A DNA stretch of 64,000 nt from Flavobacteriaceae bacterium (GTDB lineage Bacteria > Bacteroidota > Bacteroidia > Flavobacteriales > Flavobacteriaceae), in NCBI GenBank assembly GCA_009886625.1, contig QXZA01000011.1:1-64000 (forward strand). The letters are read 5' to 3'. The notes beneath the pieces were generated by a model that saw nothing but the letters and a program-made list of their open reading frames with translations, did no database searches and was not told the origin of the DNA. Numbering within the stretch: the stretch's first letter is position 1; each line of letters opens with the position of its first letter. Positions 47,219 through 56,199 of this stretch are shown here, one piece after another. A program made the position numbers and the translations under genes.

Positions 47219-47263
47219 CCCATGATTTTATAAGTATAACATTTTCGTTATTTCAATATATTA

Positions 47264-47296
47264 AAACCAGGCCTTTTCTAAGGTTTGGTTTTTTTT
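47264..47296 (+). terminator. Intrinsic terminator after the prohibitin gene
   Basis: Twelve paired positions (47264-47275 with 47280-47291, two of them G-U) close a TTCT loop. The T-rich run continues to 47296. It lies 46 bp after the prohibitin stop and is the natural end of the lpxD-to-prohibitin transcript. Confidence 0.75.
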
Positions 47297-47336
47297 ATAC
47301 ACTAACTCCTTGTCAAAATTGAAGATAGGGGAGATG

Positions 47337-47409
47337 CTGAAACAAGCTCAGCATTTCAATTGCAGGGTCTCGATTAGTTAATTCCCCTGTAACCCTGAGC
47401 TTGTTTCAG
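47337..47409. repeat. 15-bp inverted repeat pair in intergenic DNA
   Basis: CTGAAACAAGCTCAG (47337-47351) recurs as its exact reverse complement at 47395-47409, with a 43-nt spacer; each arm is itself partly palindromic. GGGGAGATG before the left arm and AATTCCCC in the spacer look related. It resembles the short intergenic palindromic repeats with a CTGAGCTTGTTTCAG core that I recall from Flavobacteria. Only one copy is visible here. Confidence 0.6.
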
Positions 47410-47437
47410 TAACTGACATCTAGAATCTTACCTTGAT

Positions 47438-48028
47438 TTAACCTATTGTTTCAAAAAACAAAACCTCTTCTTGAAATAGAAAGGGGTTGTTTTTATTGTA
47501 CTTGGTAAAACCGTTACTACCTAAATCATTTGTTCTCCAATTATTCCAAGCGTTTAATAATGATGGCTAAACAATTCTACTTTTGCTGATCCTGTTGCCT
47601 GGTTGATATTCCAATAGTATGCAGGATGAATTTTAAGTATTCCTGAATTGGGCGTAAGGTTAGAATGAGACTGGTGGCGGTAATCGACATTGATAAACGA
47701 AACACCCCTGGCCTTGCTAATAGCGAGTGGCTGAAAAACAGCTTCATGTCCAGTAGGGAAGGTAAATGTTGTGGGATTATAAATCTTGACATTTCCATCA
47801 ATATGGGCGTTGTGGTCTGCAGCTTGCCAACCGCAGTTGGAGGCAAAGGAAACAAGACCTCCGTTTGGACCATGATCAGTAACAAATGAACCCGAAACAA
47901 AAGTAGTAGTGGGTGCAGTGATGTGAAGTTCGGTATTTGGGGCAATATAAAAGTCACTATGCAAATGGAATTGTGCAAAAGTGGTGTAAAATAAAAAAAA
48001 TTTAAATAATGAATAAGATAGGTCTCAT
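47438..48028 (-). pseudogene. Frameshifted gene for a small secreted protein
   Basis: The longest open piece (to 47554) starts in mid-protein at TTG 47964. Upstream in the same frame stands the end of a signal peptide (KFFLFYTTFAQFHLHS), but no start codon. Its beginning, ATG 48028 (MRPILFII), is in another frame, so an indel lies in the T-run near 47993. At the other end, the SHHY stop is followed in another frame by NAWNNWRTNDLGSNGF and so on, to TAA 47438. Two shifts suggest inactivation. The family is unknown; it would be a secreted protein of about 195 residues. The 250 bp between 48029 and the XRE gene shows nothing I can support. Confidence 0.6.
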
Positions 48029-48277
48029 TTGCAATATCTGGGGTAAAAACATTAAAACTAGTATTAAATTAGGGGCATTACATGTTTTATTGTCATAAAC
48101 TTAATCATTTATTAAATATTTCTAAGCAGCCAAGATAAATATTTTCTTTAATTAGGGTAATTATGCCCTCTAATTTTAGCTTGATTTATAATTTTATTTT
48201 TTCTCATTTTATAAAGAATCAAATAGGCCCCTAGTTTATAAAATATAGTTTGAACAACTTATTGATATTTCTATCTG

Positions 48278-48550
48278 ATGTTTAATGCTAAACTGTTTGG
48301 CGAGAGAATGAAATATGTCCGTAGACAGTATAAAATGAGTCAACGAGAACTGTCTAACCGTTTAGATATGGATGATGGTTCTTTGCGCAGAGTTGAATCA
48401 GGCAGGACTAATCCAACTCTAAAAACTTTACATAAAGTCGCTCAAAGTTTATGTGTTCCCTTGTATGTACTTTTTCTTCCTCATGAGGAATTTGAGGAAC
48501 ATTTTGAGAAGGGAGCACGATTTGATGAAAAATTACAATCTTCTATATAA
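48278..48550 (+). CDS. XRE-family helix-turn-helix regulator
   Basis: A 90-residue Cro/C1-type DNA-binding protein. The HTH spans about residues 6-60 (RMKYVRRQYKMSQRELSNRLDMDDGSLRRVESG, then LKTLHKVAQSL), followed by a short acidic tail (HEEFEEHFEKG). It has no effector domain and no toxin partner beside it. It sits 20 bp upstream of the his leader, but the his promoter lies after its stop. A role in his control is possible but not shown. Confidence 0.8.
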   Translation: MFNAKLFGERMKYVRRQYKMSQRELSNRLDMDDGSLRRVESGRTNPTLKTLHKVAQSLCVPLYVLFLPHEEFEEHFEKGARFDEKLQSSI

Positions 48551-48557
48551 AAAAACA

Positions 48558-48565
48558 ATATATTT
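48558..48565 (+). promoter_or_regulatory. -7 promoter box of the his operon, close to leader start
   Basis: TATATTTG is an exact TAnnTTTG, with 5 nt between it and the leader peptide ATG at 48571. The leader RNA should therefore begin almost at the start codon. No -33 TTG stands at 17-20 nt. Confidence 0.6.
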
Positions 48566-48570
48566 GCATC

Positions 48571-48624
48571 TATGCAATTAAATAAAACACATCATCATCA
48601 TTTAACAGACTCGAGCGAGTGCTA
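48571..48624 (+). CDS. hisL: his operon leader peptide (four consecutive His codons)
   Basis: A 17-codon frame, MQLNKTHHHHLTDSSEC, ending with TAA. Codons 7-10 are CAT CAT CAT CAT. It is followed by a hairpin that pairs the His-codon region with 48623-48637 and by an intrinsic terminator before hisG. This is the layout of ribosome-mediated attenuation: scarcity of charged tRNA-His stalls the ribosome at the His codons and should prevent termination. It is too short for standard gene calling, and its start lies just after a -7 box. Confidence 0.85.
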
Positions 48625-48637
48625 ATGATGTAGATGT
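48587..48637 (+). promoter_or_regulatory. his leader hairpin overlapping the His codons
   Basis: CACATC (48587-48592) pairs with GATGTG (48632-48637), and CATCATT (48595-48601) with AATGATG (48623-48629), around a 2x2 internal loop. An inner ACTC/GAGT stem (48608-48611 with 48616-48619) closes the top. A ribosome stalled on the His codons would melt this structure. A competing antiterminator pairing with the terminator arm was not obvious by eye. Confidence 0.65.
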
Positions 48638-48648
48638 GCATGATATAG

Positions 48649-48678
48649 AAACCCGTTTGAAACTCAAGCGGGTTTTTT
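48649..48678 (+). terminator. his operon attenuator terminator
   Basis: AACCCGTTTGA (48649-48659) pairs with TCAAGCGGGTT (48663-48673), giving 11 bp with one G-T pair and a 3-nt loop. A run of seven T follows (48672-48678). It stands 39 bp before the hisG ATG and can stop transcription before the structural genes. Confidence 0.85.
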
Positions 48679-48717
48679 TGTTTAAAACCAGTGAGATTCA
48701 AGCATAAAAAATAAAAA

Positions 48718-49569
48718 ATGATACGAATAGCCATTCAGAAATCAGGTCGACTAAACGAGGATTCTCTTCAATTACTCAAGGACTGTGGAATTTCATTTGA
48801 TAATGGAAAAGACCAACTAAAAGCCGCAGCCCAAAATTTTCCAATGGAAGTTTTCTTTCTTCGTAATGGAGATATCCCACAGTACATGAGAGATGGAGTG
48901 GTAGATCTAGCTATTTTGGGGGAGAATCTTTTGGTGGAAAAGGGAACTGATTTGGAGATAATTGAAAAACTTGGATTTTCAAAATGTCGTGTTTCCATCG
49001 CGGTACCCAAGGGAACCGAATTTTCTAGTGTTAAGGATTTGGAAGGAAAGCAAATTGCAACATCGTATCCCGATACTGTAAGTGCTTTTCTAAAAGAGAA
49101 TCAAATTGAAGCCAATCTACACATCATTAATGGTTCGGTAGAGATTGCCCCAAACATCGGTTTGGCCGATGCTATTTGCGATATAGTCTCTAGCGGTAGT
49201 ACTCTGTTTAAGAATAACTTAAAAGAGGTAATTGAAATTAACACTTCAGAAGCAGTTTTAGTGCAAGCTCCCAGTTTAACTGAGGAAACACAAGACTTGA
49301 TTAAGAAACTTCGTTTTCGGATTCAGGCAGTATTAAGAGCCAAAAAATCAAAGTACATTCTGATGAATGTACCGGATGATAAGATTAATGCAATTAGTTC
49401 TATACTTCCTGTTTTAAAAAGTCCAACAGTATTGCCCTTAGCAAAAACTGGATGGAGTTCCCTGCATTCAGTGATTAATGCAGGAGATTTTTGGGAAGTC
49501 ATAGATGAGCTTAAGGCCAACGGAGCAGAAGATATTCTAGTTTGTCCTATCGAAAAAATGGTCTTGTAA
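48718..49569 (+). CDS. hisG: ATP phosphoribosyltransferase, long form
   Basis: First step of histidine synthesis, joining ATP and PRPP. The 283-residue HisG_L has IAIQKSGRLNEDS at the N-terminus, LRNGDIPQYMRDGVVDLAILG, the PRPP-type DIVSSGSTLFKNNL, and a C-terminal ACT-like regulatory domain (about residues 205-283). The long form normally senses histidine itself and needs no HisZ, and none is present. It overlaps hisD by one base (TAATG). Confidence 0.96.
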   Translation: MIRIAIQKSGRLNEDSLQLLKDCGISFDNGKDQLKAAAQNFPMEVFFLRNGDIPQYMRDGVVDLAILGENLLVEKGTDLEIIEKLGFSKCRVSIAVPKGTEFSSVKDLEGKQIATSYPDTVSAFLKENQIEANLHIINGSVEIAPNIGLADAICDIVSSGSTLFKNNLKEVIEINTSEAVLVQAPSLTEETQDLIKKLRFRIQAVLRAKKSKYILMNVPDDKINAISSILPVLKSPTVLPLAKTGWSSLHSVINAGDFWEVIDELKANGAEDILVCPIEKMVL

Positions 49570-50861
49570 TGCAAGAATATATAAACCCCCCTTTGATGGA
49601 ATTGGAATCCCTATTGGCAAGACCTACTGCTTCTTACGAGGCTTTAGAGCCTGTAGTAGAAAATGTCTTTGAAGCAGTAAAATCAAGAGGAGATTCTGCC
49701 GTTCGGGAATTTACTACTCAGTTTGATCAAGTGACACTATCAGATTTTCAAGTCACTAAGGAAGCTCTTGATAAAGCAGGAGAGGAAGTTTCAGAAGACT
49801 TGAAAACAGCTATTCAACAGGCTAAATCTAATATTGAACGCTTTCACAAGGCACAACAAACAGAAAGTGTTTATGTAGAAACCATGGAAGGCGTGAGTTG
49901 TTGGCAAGAAAAACGACCTATTGAAAAAGTAGGTTTGTATATTCCTGGTGGCTCGGCTCCTTTGTTTTCTACTCTTTTAATGCTCGCTGTACCCGCAAAA
50001 ATTGCAGGTTGTAAAGAGATTGTATTGTGTACACCACCCAACAAAAAGGGAGAAATCCCTGCTGTGATTCGGTATACTGCAGCTCTTTGTGGATTGACTC
50101 ACTTATACATTGTAGGAGGAGTACAAGCGATTGCAGCAATGACTTTGGGAACAGCAACCATTCCCCAAGTTTATAAAATCTTTGGCCCAGGAAATCAGTA
50201 TGTGACTGTGGCGAAGCAGTGGGCTACTCGTTACAGTGTGAGTATCGACATGCCTGCGGGGCCTAGTGAACTCTTGGTAGTTGCTGACGGCTCTGCAGAC
50301 CCTGACTTTGTTGCATCTGATTTGCTTTCTCAGGCAGAACATGGTCCTGATAGTCAAGTGATTTTTGTAACCACAGCTAGTGAAATGATAGCGAAAGTCA
50401 CTTCTTCCGTACAGGAACAATTAATCCAACTACCCAGAAAAGCCATTGCTAAAAAGGCACTTGCCAATTCAAAAATGATTTACTTCACAAATGACGACGA
50501 AGCCATTCGTTTTATCAATGCTTATGGCCCAGAGCATTATATTATTTGCATGAAAAACGAATCGCTTTATGTAAATAGTATTCAAAATGCAGGCTCTGTA
50601 TTTATCGGAAATTACACTCCAGAAAGCGCAGGAGATTATGCCTCAGGAACCAATCATACCCTGCCTACTAATGGGTATTCCAAACAATATAGTGGGGTAA
50701 ATCTCGACAGTTTTCTAAAAGCCATAAGCTTTCAAAAAATAACCAAAAAGGGAATTCAATCTTTAGGGAATACTATCGAATTAATGGCTGAGGCAGAAGG
50801 TTTAGAAGCACACAAGAATGCTGTAAGTATTCGATTAAAAAAATTGTCCAATGGAAGTTGA
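49569..50861 (+). CDS. hisD: Histidinol dehydrogenase
   Basis: Last two oxidations to histidine, zinc- and NAD-dependent. The 430-residue protein has YIPGGSAPLFSTLLM, KIFGPGNQYVTVAKQWA, IDMPAGPSELLVVAD, the LLSQAEHGPDSQ zinc/active-site segment, the catalytic GPEHYI and the late SAGDYASGTNHTLPT. The ATG at 49569 fits the family; the frame is open to 49542 inside hisG. It overlaps hisC by 11 bp. Confidence 0.96.
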   Translation: MQEYINPPLMELESLLARPTASYEALEPVVENVFEAVKSRGDSAVREFTTQFDQVTLSDFQVTKEALDKAGEEVSEDLKTAIQQAKSNIERFHKAQQTESVYVETMEGVSCWQEKRPIEKVGLYIPGGSAPLFSTLLMLAVPAKIAGCKEIVLCTPPNKKGEIPAVIRYTAALCGLTHLYIVGGVQAIAAMTLGTATIPQVYKIFGPGNQYVTVAKQWATRYSVSIDMPAGPSELLVVADGSADPDFVASDLLSQAEHGPDSQVIFVTTASEMIAKVTSSVQEQLIQLPRKAIAKKALANSKMIYFTNDDEAIRFINAYGPEHYIICMKNESLYVNSIQNAGSVFIGNYTPESAGDYASGTNHTLPTNGYSKQYSGVNLDSFLKAISFQKITKKGIQSLGNTIELMAEAEGLEAHKNAVSIRLKKLSNGS

Positions 50862-51903
50862 TTTTACTTTTTATTTACGAAAGTCCTTGTTGGAATTGTC
50901 TCCTTATCAATCTGCGCGGGAGGAATTTGTGAACTACGGTCGTCAAATGATTTTATTGGATGCGAATGAGAATCCTTTCGCGACCTCAGTTAATCGGTAT
51001 CCAGATCCGATGCAAACCCGACTTAAAAAGGAAATTGCAAGTTGGAGAAAGCTAGAGGAAGATCAAATTTATTTGAGTAATGGGAGCGATGAGTTTATTT
51101 CTCAAATCATTATGGGATGTTGTGAACCCGGAGAAGACCATATACTTATTGTTCCTCCTACATTTGGGATGTACAAAGTTGCTGCTAAAATCCATGGAGT
51201 GGGAGTAAAGGAAGTACCTTTGACTTCAGAATTTCAATTGGATGTCCCTTCGATACTGAAATCAGCTGATCAAAAAACAAAGCTTTTATTTATTCCGAAT
51301 CCCAATAATCCAACAGGCAATAGTTTTAAAGCTGAAGACATTAAAACCATAATTGAGAACTTTAATGGTTTAGTGATCGTTGATGAGGCCTATGTAGAGT
51401 TTGCAAAAGCACCTTCTAGTCTTCCTATGTTAAACAACTATCCAAACCTTATGGTCTGCCAAACTTTTTCAAAGGCACAGGGTATGGCTGGAGTAAGGCT
51501 AGGAATGGCATTTGCACACAAGACCTTAATTGCGTTCTTAAACAGAATTAAAGCACCCTATAATATTAATTCTCTGAGCTTAACAGCTGCGTCTGAGCAA
51601 TTGAGAAAACAAGATTTGGTGAAAGAACAGGTCACAACTTTGTTAAAAGAACGTAGTCGCCTAGAGCGCGTTTTACAAGAGTTGAACTGGGTGGTAAGCT
51701 GTTTTCCTTCCGATGCAAACTTTATTTTGATTCGAGTAGATAATAGCGCCCTGCGTTACAAACAATTCATCCAAGCGGGAATTGTAGTTCGAAATTCCTC
51801 AAAGAGTTTGGGCTGTGAAAATACACTTAGAATTACGGTTGGAACACCCAAAGAAAATAACACATTAATCGAAGTGCTGCAGACACTGGACAATAACTTA
51901 TGA
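50851..51903 (+). CDS. hisC: Histidinol-phosphate aminotransferase
   Basis: PLP-dependent transamination of imidazole-acetol phosphate. The 350-residue fold-type I enzyme has [52 protein letters not shown] and the Schiff-base lysine in [17 protein letters not shown]. It overlaps hisD (11 bp) and hisB (ATGA). Confidence 0.95.
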
Positions 51904-53027
51904 AAAAAGTTTTATTTATCGATCGTGACGGTACTTTGGCCTTGGAGCCCGAGGACTATCAATTAGATGCTTTTGAAAAACTTATATTTTACCCACAGGT
52001 ATTTACCTTTTTAGGGAAGATAGCTAAAGAGCTTGACTACAGCCTTGTTATGGTTACCAATCAAGATGGTCTTGGAACGGATAGTTTTCCAGAAGACACC
52101 TTTTGGCCGGTACACAAATTGCTTTTAAAGAGCTTTGAGCAGGAGGGAATTGTTTTTGAAGAAGTACTTATTGACAGGAGCTTTCCAGAGGATAATTCCC
52201 CTAACCGAAAGCCAAAAACAGGTTTTCTAACTTCTTATTTAGAAGGTAACCAATATGATTTAAATCACTCATACGTGATTGGGGATCGTTTAACCGACAT
52301 GGAATTGGCAAAAAACCTTGGAGCAAAGGGTATTTTTATTGCTAATGATGAGACTTTAGGAGCAGAAGAGGCCTCAGAGGGGTTAACGGATTCTATTGCC
52401 TTAAAAACGACCACTTGGGAAGCGATTTACAAATTTTTGAAATTAGAGCAACGCATCACCGTAAGGAAACGAACTACTCATGAAACAGACATTTCACTTC
52501 GTTTAAACCTTGATGGATCAGGAAAGAGTGAAATTTCTACAGGGATTGTCTTTTTTGATCATATGCTGGATCAGTTAGCTCGTCATGGTGGTATGGATAT
52601 TTCACTTCAAGTTAAGGGTGATTTGGAGGTAGATGAACATCATACCATCGAGGATACTGCTATTGTTCTAGGCGATGCTTTTGCAGCTGCTTTAGGAAAT
52701 AAGTTAGGGATTGAACGTTATGGTTTTTGTTTGCCTATGGATGATTGTTTGGCTCAGGTAGCTATAGATTTTGGTGGTAGAAATTGGCTTGTATGGGAGG
52801 CAGCATTTCGCCGGGAAATGATTGGTAAAATGCCCACTGAAATGTTTTTGCACTTTTTTAAATCCTTTTCTGATGGTGCCAAAGCCAATATAAACATTAA
52901 GGCAGAAGGTGATAATGAGCACCATAAAATAGAAGCAATCTTTAAGGCCTTTGCTAAGGCGATTAAAGTTGCAGTAAAGCGAGATCCGGAAAAGATGATT
53001 CTCCCTTCAACCAAAGGAAGTCTCTAA
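51900..53027 (+). CDS. hisB: Bifunctional histidinol-phosphatase / imidazoleglycerol-phosphate dehydratase
   Basis: A 375-residue fusion. Residues ~1-165 are a HAD phosphatase (FIDRDGTL catalytic aspartates, [22 protein letters not shown]). Residues ~180-375 are IGPD ([49 protein letters not shown]). In E. coli HisB the phosphatase domain holds zinc through C-x-H...C-x-C just before RKPK. Here that loop reads [16 protein letters not shown], so all four ligands are replaced. It has ATGA overlap with hisC. Confidence 0.94.
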
Positions 53028-53028
53028 T

Positions 53029-53616
53029 ATGGAAGTCGCTATTATTGATTATGGAGCAGGGAATATTAAAAGCTTACAGTTTGCACTTGAACGATTAGGA
53101 GTTACTGGACATCTAACCGCAGATCCTGAGCAAATTAAAGCTGCTGATAAAGTGATTTTCCCTGGACAAGGGGCGGCACAAAGTGCAATGATAAAATTAA
53201 AAACGCATGGTTTGGATGCAATCATTCCTCAGCTCAAGCAACCTGTTTTAGGTATTTGCTTGGGGATGCAATTGTTGTGTGATTATTCGGAAGAGGGAGA
53301 TGTGAACGGTTTGGGAATCATTCAAGGAAAGGTACGACGATTTTCAGATCAATTGAAGGTACCACAGATGGGTTGGAATACAATATTTGAAATGCAAACA
53401 ACACTATTTCAAGAAATTAAAGATCATGAATTCATGTATTTAGTTCACTCTTATTTTGTACCACTTCTTCCAGAAACCATTGCGGTAAGCACCTATAATA
53501 AAGCTTATAGTGTGGCCTTACGAAAGGATAATTTTTACGGGGTTCAATTTCATCCTGAAAAGAGTAGCAAAGCAGGGCAGCAGTTGCTTAAAAATTTTTT
53601 AAACCTTACTACATGA
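53029..53616 (+). CDS. hisH: Imidazole glycerol phosphate synthase, glutaminase subunit
   Basis: A 195-residue class I glutamine amidotransferase that feeds ammonia to HisF. Seen are [23 protein letters not shown], the nucleophile cysteine in [15 protein letters not shown], and the catalytic FHPEKS. It has a 4-bp overlap with hisA. Confidence 0.95.
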
Positions 53617-54335
53617 GAATCATACCCGCCATAGATCTTATTGACGGTAAGTGTGTACGTCTTTCCAAAGGAGATTACAACACTCAAAAAACCTATAGCG
53701 AAAACCCCTTGGAAGTTGCTAAGGCTTTTGAAGCACATGGGATTAAATATTTGCACCTAGTTGACTTAGACGGTGCAAAATCCAAACACATAGTGAATCA
53801 CAATGTATTGGAGACTATCGCGTCTAAAACCAGCCTTAAAATCGATTTTGGAGGGGGATTGAAGTCTAATGAGGATCTGAAAATTGCTTTTGAAAGTGGT
53901 GCACATCAAATTACGGGAGGGAGTATAGCCGTAAAGGAGCCTAAAACCTTTGAACAATGGATCACAACCTATGGGAGTGATAAAATTATTTTAGGAGCTG
54001 ATGTACAAGGTGATCGTATAGCAACGGACGGTTGGTTTGAAACTTCTGACCATCGTTTAATTGACTTCGTCAAAGATTTTTATGCCAAAGGGATACAATA
54101 TATAATTTGTACAGACATTAGCAAAGACGGTATGTTGCAAGGTCCTTCTTTTGATGTCTATCAAAATTTATTGCAAGAACAACCCAATATAAAACTCATT
54201 GCGTCGGGAGGGATTTCTGCTTTTGAAGAACTACCCAAGCTTGAGGCCATGGGCTGTGAGGGAACCATTATTGGGAAAGCGATTTATGAAAATAAAATTG
54301 CCCTAAAAGAATTAGAAAACTTTATTATTCAATAA
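53613..54335 (+). CDS. hisA: ProFAR isomerase (HisA)
   Basis: A 240-residue (beta/alpha)8 barrel: [20 protein letters not shown] with the catalytic aspartate, [20 protein letters not shown], and the second aspartate in [14 protein letters not shown], followed by [13 protein letters not shown]. It isomerises ProFAR to PRFAR. It overlaps the DinB-like gene by one base (TAATG). Confidence 0.95.
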
Positions 54336-54841
54336 TGAAAAAGATCATTTTAAAGGAATTTAAAGAAAATGCGGTTTTTAGACTTGAAGAAAATTTGCGT
54401 ATAATCTTCATTGCTTTTTCAAAAATAACAGAAGAGATGCTTTGGAAACGACCGACTGAGGGAGGAATGGCATTGGGGAATCAAATCTTGCATAGTTGTG
54501 GCAATATGACTCAGTACATTAGTGCTTCCTTGGGAGAACAAAAGGATGAACGCAATCGCGATATAGAGTTTTCTACAAATGCTGGATCTAAGGAAGAATT
54601 GCTTACTTTGTTAACTACTACGGTTCAAAAAGCTCAAGACACTCTACAAAATGCCACTTTGCTTCAATACGAAACTGTTCGAGAGGTTCAAGGTTTTCGA
54701 TTATCTGGAATTGGAGTGGTTTTGCATGCCGTAGAGTATTTTTCCTATCATACGGGTCAGATAGCATTTTGGGTAAAACAATTAACTCAAGAGGACTTGG
54801 GATTTTATGCTGGAGTAGATTTAACACATAACAATCAATAG
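54335..54841 (+). CDS. DinB/YfiT-like four-helix protein inside the his operon
   Basis: A 168-residue protein with the DinB four-helix-bundle look: a histidine at about residue 53 ([11 protein letters not shown]), then the late [17 protein letters not shown] with H131 and H139. Together these form a possible metal-binding His triad. DinB-family members include thiol S-transferases (bacillithiol type) and proteins of unknown role. It lies between hisA (1-bp overlap) and hisF (1-bp gap), so it is co-transcribed with the his genes. No step of histidine synthesis requires it. Confidence 0.8.
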
Positions 54842-54842
54842 T

Positions 54843-55598
54843 ATGTTGACCAAACGCATCATACCCTGTTTAGACATCAAAGACGGTAGAACCGTTAAAG
54901 GAGTGAATTTTGTTGACTTACGCGATGCTGGTGATCCAGTTGAATTGGCACGTCAGTACGCTGAAGAGAATGCAGATGAATTGGTGTTTTTGGATATTTC
55001 AGCGACCGAGCAAAAACGAAAAACCTTAGCCAATTTGGTTTTGAAAGTTGCTGCTGCCATTGATATACCTTTTACTGTAGGTGGAGGAATAAGTTCTGTA
55101 GAGGATGTCGAAATACTCTTACAAAATGGTGCGGATAAGGTCTCTATCAATTCTGCAGCAGTAAAAAATCCCGCATTAGTCAATGCATGTGCAGAGCAGT
55201 TTGGCAGTCAATGTGTGGTAATTGCAATTGATGCTAAACAAATTAACGGTCAATGGAAAGTACATTTGGTAGGGGGGAAAGTCCCCACAGAATTTGACTT
55301 ATTTGACTGGGCAAAAGAAGTAGCTGAAAGGGGAGCGGGCGAAATTTTATTCACTTCTATGGATCACGATGGAACTAAAGAGGGTTTTGCCAATCAAGCC
55401 TTAGCCCGATTATCAGAGGAAGTAAATATCCCTATAATTGCTTCGGGTGGCGCAGGAAAGAGTAGTCATTTTGTAGATACTTTTACTCATGGGAAAGCAG
55501 ATGCTGCTTTGGCTGCAAGTATTTTTCATTTTGGAGAAATTTCAATTCCCAAGCTCAAACAAGAACTCAAACAACAGCATTTAGCAATACGAATTTAA
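54843..55598 (+). CDS. hisF: Imidazole glycerol phosphate synthase, cyclase subunit
   Basis: A 251-residue barrel that makes IGP and AICAR with HisH. Seen are [19 protein letters not shown] (catalytic aspartate), [37 protein letters not shown], and the second aspartate in [12 protein letters not shown]. It lies between the DinB-like gene and hisIE, one base from each. Confidence 0.96.
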
Positions 55599-55599
55599 T

Positions 55600-56199
55600 A
55601 TGAAGACACTTAATTTTTCAAAAGCAGCCGACGGCTTACTCCCCGCAATTATTCAGGATGTAAATACAAGAACCGTTTTAATGTTGGGATACATGAACGA
55701 GGAAGCCTTGACTAAAACCCAAGAAAGTGGAAACGTAACTTTTTATAGCAGAAGTAAAAATCGTCTCTGGACCAAGGGAGAAGAGAGTGGAAATTTTCTT
55801 GAATTGATCAGTATAAAAGAAGACTGTGATCAAGACACCCTGTTGATTCAAGTAAAACCGAAAGGGCCAACTTGTCATAAAGGATCGGATACTTGTTGGG
55901 ATTCAAAAAACGAATCAAGCTTTGGTTTTTTAAGTGAATTGGAAGCCAAAATTAAATCGCGTAAAGAAAACAATAGTGAAGACAGTTATGTCGCTTCTTT
56001 GTTTAGAAAAGGAATTAATAAAATTGCTCAAAAAGTAGGAGAGGAGGCTATAGAAACCGTAATTGAAGCCAAAGATGATAACGAAGAATTATTCTTAAAT
56101 GAAAGTGCCGATTTGTTGTTTCATTACATGATTTTGCTTCAAGTAAAAGGCTTTACTTTGACTGATATAGTTTCAGTATTAGAAGGTAGAAGTCATTAA
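55600..56199 (+). CDS. hisIE: Bifunctional phosphoribosyl-AMP cyclohydrolase / phosphoribosyl-ATP pyrophosphatase
   Basis: A 199-residue fusion. HisI (residues ~1-110) shows LGYMNEEAL, FYSRSKNRLWTKGEESGN, and the zinc cysteines in EDCDQDTL and GPTCHKGSDTCW. HisE (~112-199) shows YVASLFRKGINKIAQKVGEEAIETVIEAK and ESADLLFHYMILL. It is the last gene of the operon; no terminator is evident before the DUF885 gene, 67 bp further on. Confidence 0.95.
   Translation: MKTLNFSKAADGLLPAIIQDVNTRTVLMLGYMNEEALTKTQESGNVTFYSRSKNRLWTKGEESGNFLELISIKEDCDQDTLLIQVKPKGPTCHKGSDTCWDSKNESSFGFLSELEAKIKSRKENNSEDSYVASLFRKGINKIAQKVGEEAIETVIEAKDDNEELFLNESADLLFHYMILLQVKGFTLTDIVSVLEGRSH

Follow-up and report, generated by a model that had tools for sequence, protein, structure and literature searches.

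What decides whether the histidine operon of this marine flavobacterium is transcribed? Upstream of hisG, the 64,000-nt stretch of DNA that we analysed (hereafter the window) carries a short reading frame with a run of histidine codons and, behind it, an intrinsic terminator, and the question is whether a ribosome on the first governs the second. Leader-peptide attenuation is a textbook principle, for which E. coli hisL and trpL are the classical cases, and a sequence-only reading of this DNA had proposed that the classical his logic acts here. The conserved parts and the computed switch described below support that proposal and, as far as modelling goes, make ribosome-mediated transcription attenuation of the his operon very likely; leader and terminator together would probably let the histidine enzymes be made only when histidine-starved ribosomes stall. 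The locus comprises the following elements:

48559..48566, + strand: -7 promoter box TATATTTG, of the Bacteroidota sigma-A type TAnnTTTG (from the sequence)
48571..48571, + strand: predicted transcription start, giving a 5' UTR of ~1 nt (from F. psychrophilum promoter geometry)
48572..48625, + strand: leader ORF MQLNKTHHHHLTDSSEC, followed by its stop (from the sequence)
48588..48602, + strand: 5' strand of the pause/sequestering hairpin P1, holding the His codons (from the fold)
48590..48601, + strand: regulatory codons, four consecutive CAU (His) (from the sequence)
48609..48620, + strand: mini-hairpin ACUC-GAGC-GAGU, predicted to hide the antiterminator strand on RNA without a ribosome (from the fold)
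48611..48617, + strand: antiterminator 5' strand UCGAGCG, within codons 14-16, shortly ahead of the stop (from pairing conservation)
48624..48638, + strand: 3' strand of P1 (AUGAUG..GAUGUG) (from the fold)
48647..48679, + strand: intrinsic terminator with a 14-bp stem (48647-48660/48664-48677), loop AAC and seven T at 48673-48679 (from fold and sequence)
48654..48660, + strand: antiterminator 3' strand CGUUUGA, within the terminator 5' arm (from mutually exclusive pairing)
48718..49569, + strand: hisG, long-form with a HisG_C domain, first gene of the operon (Pfam PF01634, PF08029)
49569..56199, + strand: hisD, hisC, hisB (HAD-IGPD fusion), hisH, hisA, a DinB-like gene, hisF and hisIE (Pfam, ORFs)

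The operon thus has the order hisGDCB-HA-(DinB-like)-F-IE, with the DinB/DUF1572-like gene at 54335-54841 between hisA and hisF. Its leader reads ATG CAA TTA AAT AAA ACA (CAT)4 TTA ACA GAC TCG AGC GAG TGC TAA, a short ORF with a run of codons for the amino acid that the operon makes, and the four CAU are kept in relatives. All the elements claimed by the sequence-only reading are present at coordinates that differ by 0-2 nt: it had put a 17-codon leader with four CAT codons at 48571-48624 (actually 48572-48625) and a terminator 39 bp before hisG, which we measure as 38 nt from the ATG of hisG at 48718, between the leader and the first structural gene. Its placement of that terminator, with seven T, at 48649-48678 also stands, whereas the 11-bp stem it gave is in fact one of 14 bp (48647-48677). 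Runs of CAY alone are unspecific, with 33 (CAY)4 sites across the genome.

Between an SPFH-like gene and the his leader lies a segment of ~1.3 kb (47219-48550) that contains an HTH_3 regulator gene (48278-48550). In the close relatives L002 and L003 the leader follows the SPFH-like gene directly, and this segment therefore looks like an insertion here or a loss elsewhere.

The -7 box, expected at 48558, was found at 48559-48566, and an exact TAnnTTTG lies 5' of the leader start in 74 of 107 loci from the families coded f1 and f2 as against 6% of shuffles. In F. psychrophilum promoters, according to PMC9723704, this box spans -12 to -5, and +1 would therefore fall at ~48571, one nucleotide before the ATG. 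Promoter geometry predicts a 1-nt UTR, and the transcript may be a leaderless mRNA, with its 5' end at or next to the start codon. The earlier proposal that the 5' end of the leader RNA lies almost at the start codon agrees with this predicted geometry and with the spacing in the closest relatives, which retain the window's distance from box to start. More broadly, the gap between box and start codon is 4-9 nt in 48 of the 74 f1 and f2 loci with an exact box, and a second group has 16-19 nt. Judged by this spacing, near-leaderless initiation is common without being required for the proposed mechanism.

The leader RNA folds at -35.4 kcal/mol (z = -6.2), and none of 200 shuffles is equally stable. 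In P1, positions 48588-48593 pair with 48633-48638 and positions 48596-48602 with 48624-48630, enclosing the mini-hairpin (48609-48612/48617-48620), which has a probability of 0.97 in the free RNA. A hairpin between the His codons and 48623-48637 had already been recognised, and its 3' strand is more exactly 48624-48638. P1-type pairing is significant (p<=0.05) in 46 of 93 f1 loci, and its register moves between lineages, as seen in an alignment by eye. Outside Flavobacteriaceae it is not generally significant (15 of 64 loci), and for that reason we do not claim P1 there. RNAalifold on the full alignment recovered the terminator alone.

The sequence-only reading had seen no strong antiterminator by eye. 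One does exist, inside the last codons of the leader: the strand UCGAGCG, which nearly copies the terminator 3' arm (UCGAGCG vs UCAAGCG), forms a strong, conserved pairing with CGUUUGA of the 5' arm that is mutually exclusive with the terminator. In the window itself this pairing has p = 0.01 against shuffles. Across 77 distinct aligned flavobacterial leaders, the 7-bp core retains its pairs in 534 of 539 cells (99%), and over the whole 10-pair helix 85% of cells pair, compared with 14-47% when slid by 1-3 columns. Variation of the core within Flavobacteriaceae is mostly one-sided (G-C to G-U) and two-sided changes are few; among them are a triple compensatory change in L058 (ACAAACG / CGUUUGU / ACAAACG) and a joint change in L079 (CAGGCG / CGCUUG / CAAGCG). 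The strands change rarely because the three of them are tied to each other. The mimic of the 3' arm is read in two main frames, giving SNE-type ends in 27 leaders and QAR-type ends in 63, and thus it is the RNA pairing and not the peptide that appears to be conserved and selected.

To locate the switch we moved a 30-nt ribosome mask along the leader codon by codon (-15 to +14, a footprint taken from other bacteria) and folded the transcript as it stands once the 5' arm of the terminator is out. The antiterminator then forms with a probability of 0.99 for an A-site at any of codons 3-8; the value is 0.98 at His9, 0.52 at His10 and 0.05 at Leu11, and from codon 12 up to the stop it is 0. A ribosome at codons 2-9 therefore gives the antiterminator and one at codons 11-18 the terminator, and the His codons (7-10) sit at the edge of the step. 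With no ribosome on the RNA, P1 and the mini-hairpin conceal UCGAGCG, and the antiterminator probability is therefore 0.01. The computed scans thus have a stall at the His codons freeing the antiterminator strand and a ribosome at the stop masking it. The same behaviour, on at the first His and dropping before the stop, was computed for 123 of 133 loci (66/71 relatives, 20/22 f1, 5/5 f2 and 32/35 from other families), and shuffling the spacers abolishes the contrast. In the full-length transcript at equilibrium the terminator is favoured at every ribosome position; the switch must therefore be kinetic, as in classical attenuation.

Beyond the computed parts, their conservation, exclusivity and switch position, we infer the 5' end, ribosome loading, kinetic competition and the response in vivo, which might run as follows. 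A ribosome would load at the near-5'-terminal leader AUG as it emerges from the polymerase. When charged tRNA-His is scarce, this ribosome would stall on the CAU run and block P1 and the mini-hairpin, freeing UCGAGCG to pair with CGUUUGA; with the terminator 5' arm thus taken, the polymerase would continue into hisG. With plentiful histidine the ribosome would reach the stop codon, 5 nt past UCGAGCG, and its footprint would cover this strand so that the terminator forms. The terminator would also form on an RNA without a ribosome, where P1 and the mini-hairpin would hide the strand.

The comparison that the sequence-only reading had proposed, upstream of flavobacterial hisG, found leader, terminator and antiterminator in essentially all 80 relatives with hisG. 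A covariance model of the element matches beside hisG (adjacency being judged by comparing the coordinates of the covariance-model and hisG searches) in every genome with hisG that we sampled from the window's family or its sister family, and also in three genomes of other families. Weak matches elsewhere in the genome (22-35 bits) were set aside, the two inspected, L083 and L085, resembling ordinary terminators.

For the phylum as a whole, we sampled 461 bases around the hisG start in 100 genomes. In 90 of them a short ORF upstream of hisG has three or more His within 7 codons, and the corresponding rate is 3.5% for dinucleotide shuffles and 3% for reverse strands. Such an ORF is absent from the sampled f14, f18, f25 and f47 genomes and from two of the five f29 genomes. 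Outside f1 and f2 the terminator letters vary by family (GGCUUACC/GGUAAGCC in f4, CCCGGC/GCCGGG in f16, CCUACCUG/CAGGUAGG in f5), and nonetheless 98% of loci, compared with 37% of shuffles, have a mimic of the 3' arm at the stop codon of the leader. Elsewhere in Bacteroidota, loci with a terminator usually repeat the layout with the mimic at the stop, in unrelated letters. The arm-mimic pairing is significant in 26 of 41 such loci (Fisher p = 2e-26, an indicative value that ignores relatedness), and we regard the between-family turnover of all strands, as read from these sequences, as a stronger argument than the combined p-value.

Some His leaders stand without a terminator. Very His-rich leaders such as VKNILLHNAHHSHHGFHHGHHHVQ precede hisG in f23 (L172-L176, L179, L181, L183, L186) and f50 (L185), and no intrinsic terminator was found between leader and hisG in these loci; involvement of Rho there is one guess. 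When all terminator-less loci are pooled, the stretch from stop to hisG is C-rich and G-poor (median C/G 1.5 vs 0.94 with a terminator). Other terminator-less leaders, in f3 (L152, L153, L155, L157, L159, L160) and f8/f9 (L126, L132, L136, L141, L147), have a short hairpin positioned at the leader stop or spanning it, as in CAUCGCC..GGCGAUA and AUUCCUCUUAAGAGGAAU. An evolutionary account could be that translation-coupled his attenuation is old and phylum-wide in Bacteroidota, that the mimic was kept while its letters turned over, and that in some families the terminator disappeared and the same leader came to serve a different output (a hairpin at the stop codon, Rho or translational control); we consider the chances that it is right to be about evenly balanced.

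Could the terminator simply end transcription of the upstream HTH gene, or set a constant low read-through, with the His-rich ORF being incidental? The HTH_3 gene does end at 48550 on the same strand, shortly upstream of the leader. However, the -7 box sits between the two, relatives have a different upstream gene (an SPFH-like ORF ending ..ILGNQ and a stop) and yet leader, mimic and terminator stay with hisG, and the His runs and mimic positions are far above shuffles; we consider this explanation very improbable. Even less credit goes to a functional role of the His-rich peptide itself, with RNA structure being secondary. Such peptides can bind metals, and a long His-rich leader is retained even in the terminator-less families, but the peptide C-terminus varies (SNE, QAR, QMR) because translation passes through the conserved RNA motif in more than one frame, and leader length and flanks vary freely while the leader always stays beside hisG.

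An equally slight chance remains for a trans-acting factor, either a protein or a tRNA bound directly as in a T-box, setting the switch in place of a stalled ribosome. P1 and the mini-hairpin could be bound by a protein. On the other hand, in one family after another the switch point computed from ribosome occlusion alone falls on the His run or immediately behind it, and no Rfam family, T-box included, reaches the gathering score, the best sub-threshold matches being chance-like. Attenuation by a stalled ribosome remains the reading we prefer.

How does this attenuator compare with known ones? It resembles the enterobacterial his and trp attenuators in having a leader ORF with regulatory codons and alternative antiterminator and terminator pairings between which ribosome position decides, and it shows every defining trait of this class that sequence analysis can assess. 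In the enterobacterial systems, the antiterminator strand comes after the leader stop, and his has six segments; here, by contrast, the strand lies inside the last leader codons and ends 5 nt before the stop, and there are three segments, with the terminator 5' arm as the antiterminator's only partner. Also unlike those attenuators, the element has a predicted 5' UTR of ~1 nt and no Shine-Dalgarno site, of which Bacteroidota ribosomes rarely make use. An Rfam search of the window found no family that corresponds to the element at gathering score. The Rfam His_leader (RF00514) likewise controls his operons via a His leader peptide, but it is an unrelated RNA in sequence and gave no hit in the window, even below threshold. 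Bacteroid-trp RNA (RF01692), which we take to sit before trp genes, is also a cis-regulatory element of Bacteroidetes but a different family from the his element; its best match in this genome, elsewhere, was sub-threshold (40.4 vs 49 bits) and unconvincing.

The idea of attenuation has therefore been raised for the phylum before: Bacteroid-trp appears among the listed cis-regulatory motifs of Bacteroidetes (PMC2864571), and a study of F. psychrophilum, from the same bacterial family, reported 'strong clues' for attenuation by leader peptides ahead of operons for amino-acid biosynthesis, in relevant main-text passages that name no his leader, codon run or antiterminator (PMC9723704). In the openly readable main texts that we searched, we found no described Bacteroidota his leader. 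New relative to that literature are the antiterminator within the last leader codons and the computed switch point, as well as the recurrence across the phylum in changed letters and the His-leader families showing no terminator. Attenuation needs a ribosome that closely trails RNA polymerase, and the element would offer a natural single-operon read-out of transcription-translation coupling on an RNA whose predicted 5' end is near the leader AUG. It also provides an RNA family for annotating hisG leaders in Flavobacteriaceae, and it highlights the families where the same leader must function without a terminator.

Two individual loci depart from the common form. L096 (G053, f1) has reshaped terminator arms (CCCGUUUGAGC..GCUUUAACGGG) and a mimic altered to GCUCAACG, and is possibly a drifting or rebuilt element. 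In L111 (G281, f2) the terminator is now CCCGCCUGAG..AAGGCGGG and the leader motif CUCUCGCG pairs poorly with it (p = 0.18), so that this locus breaks the mimic rule.
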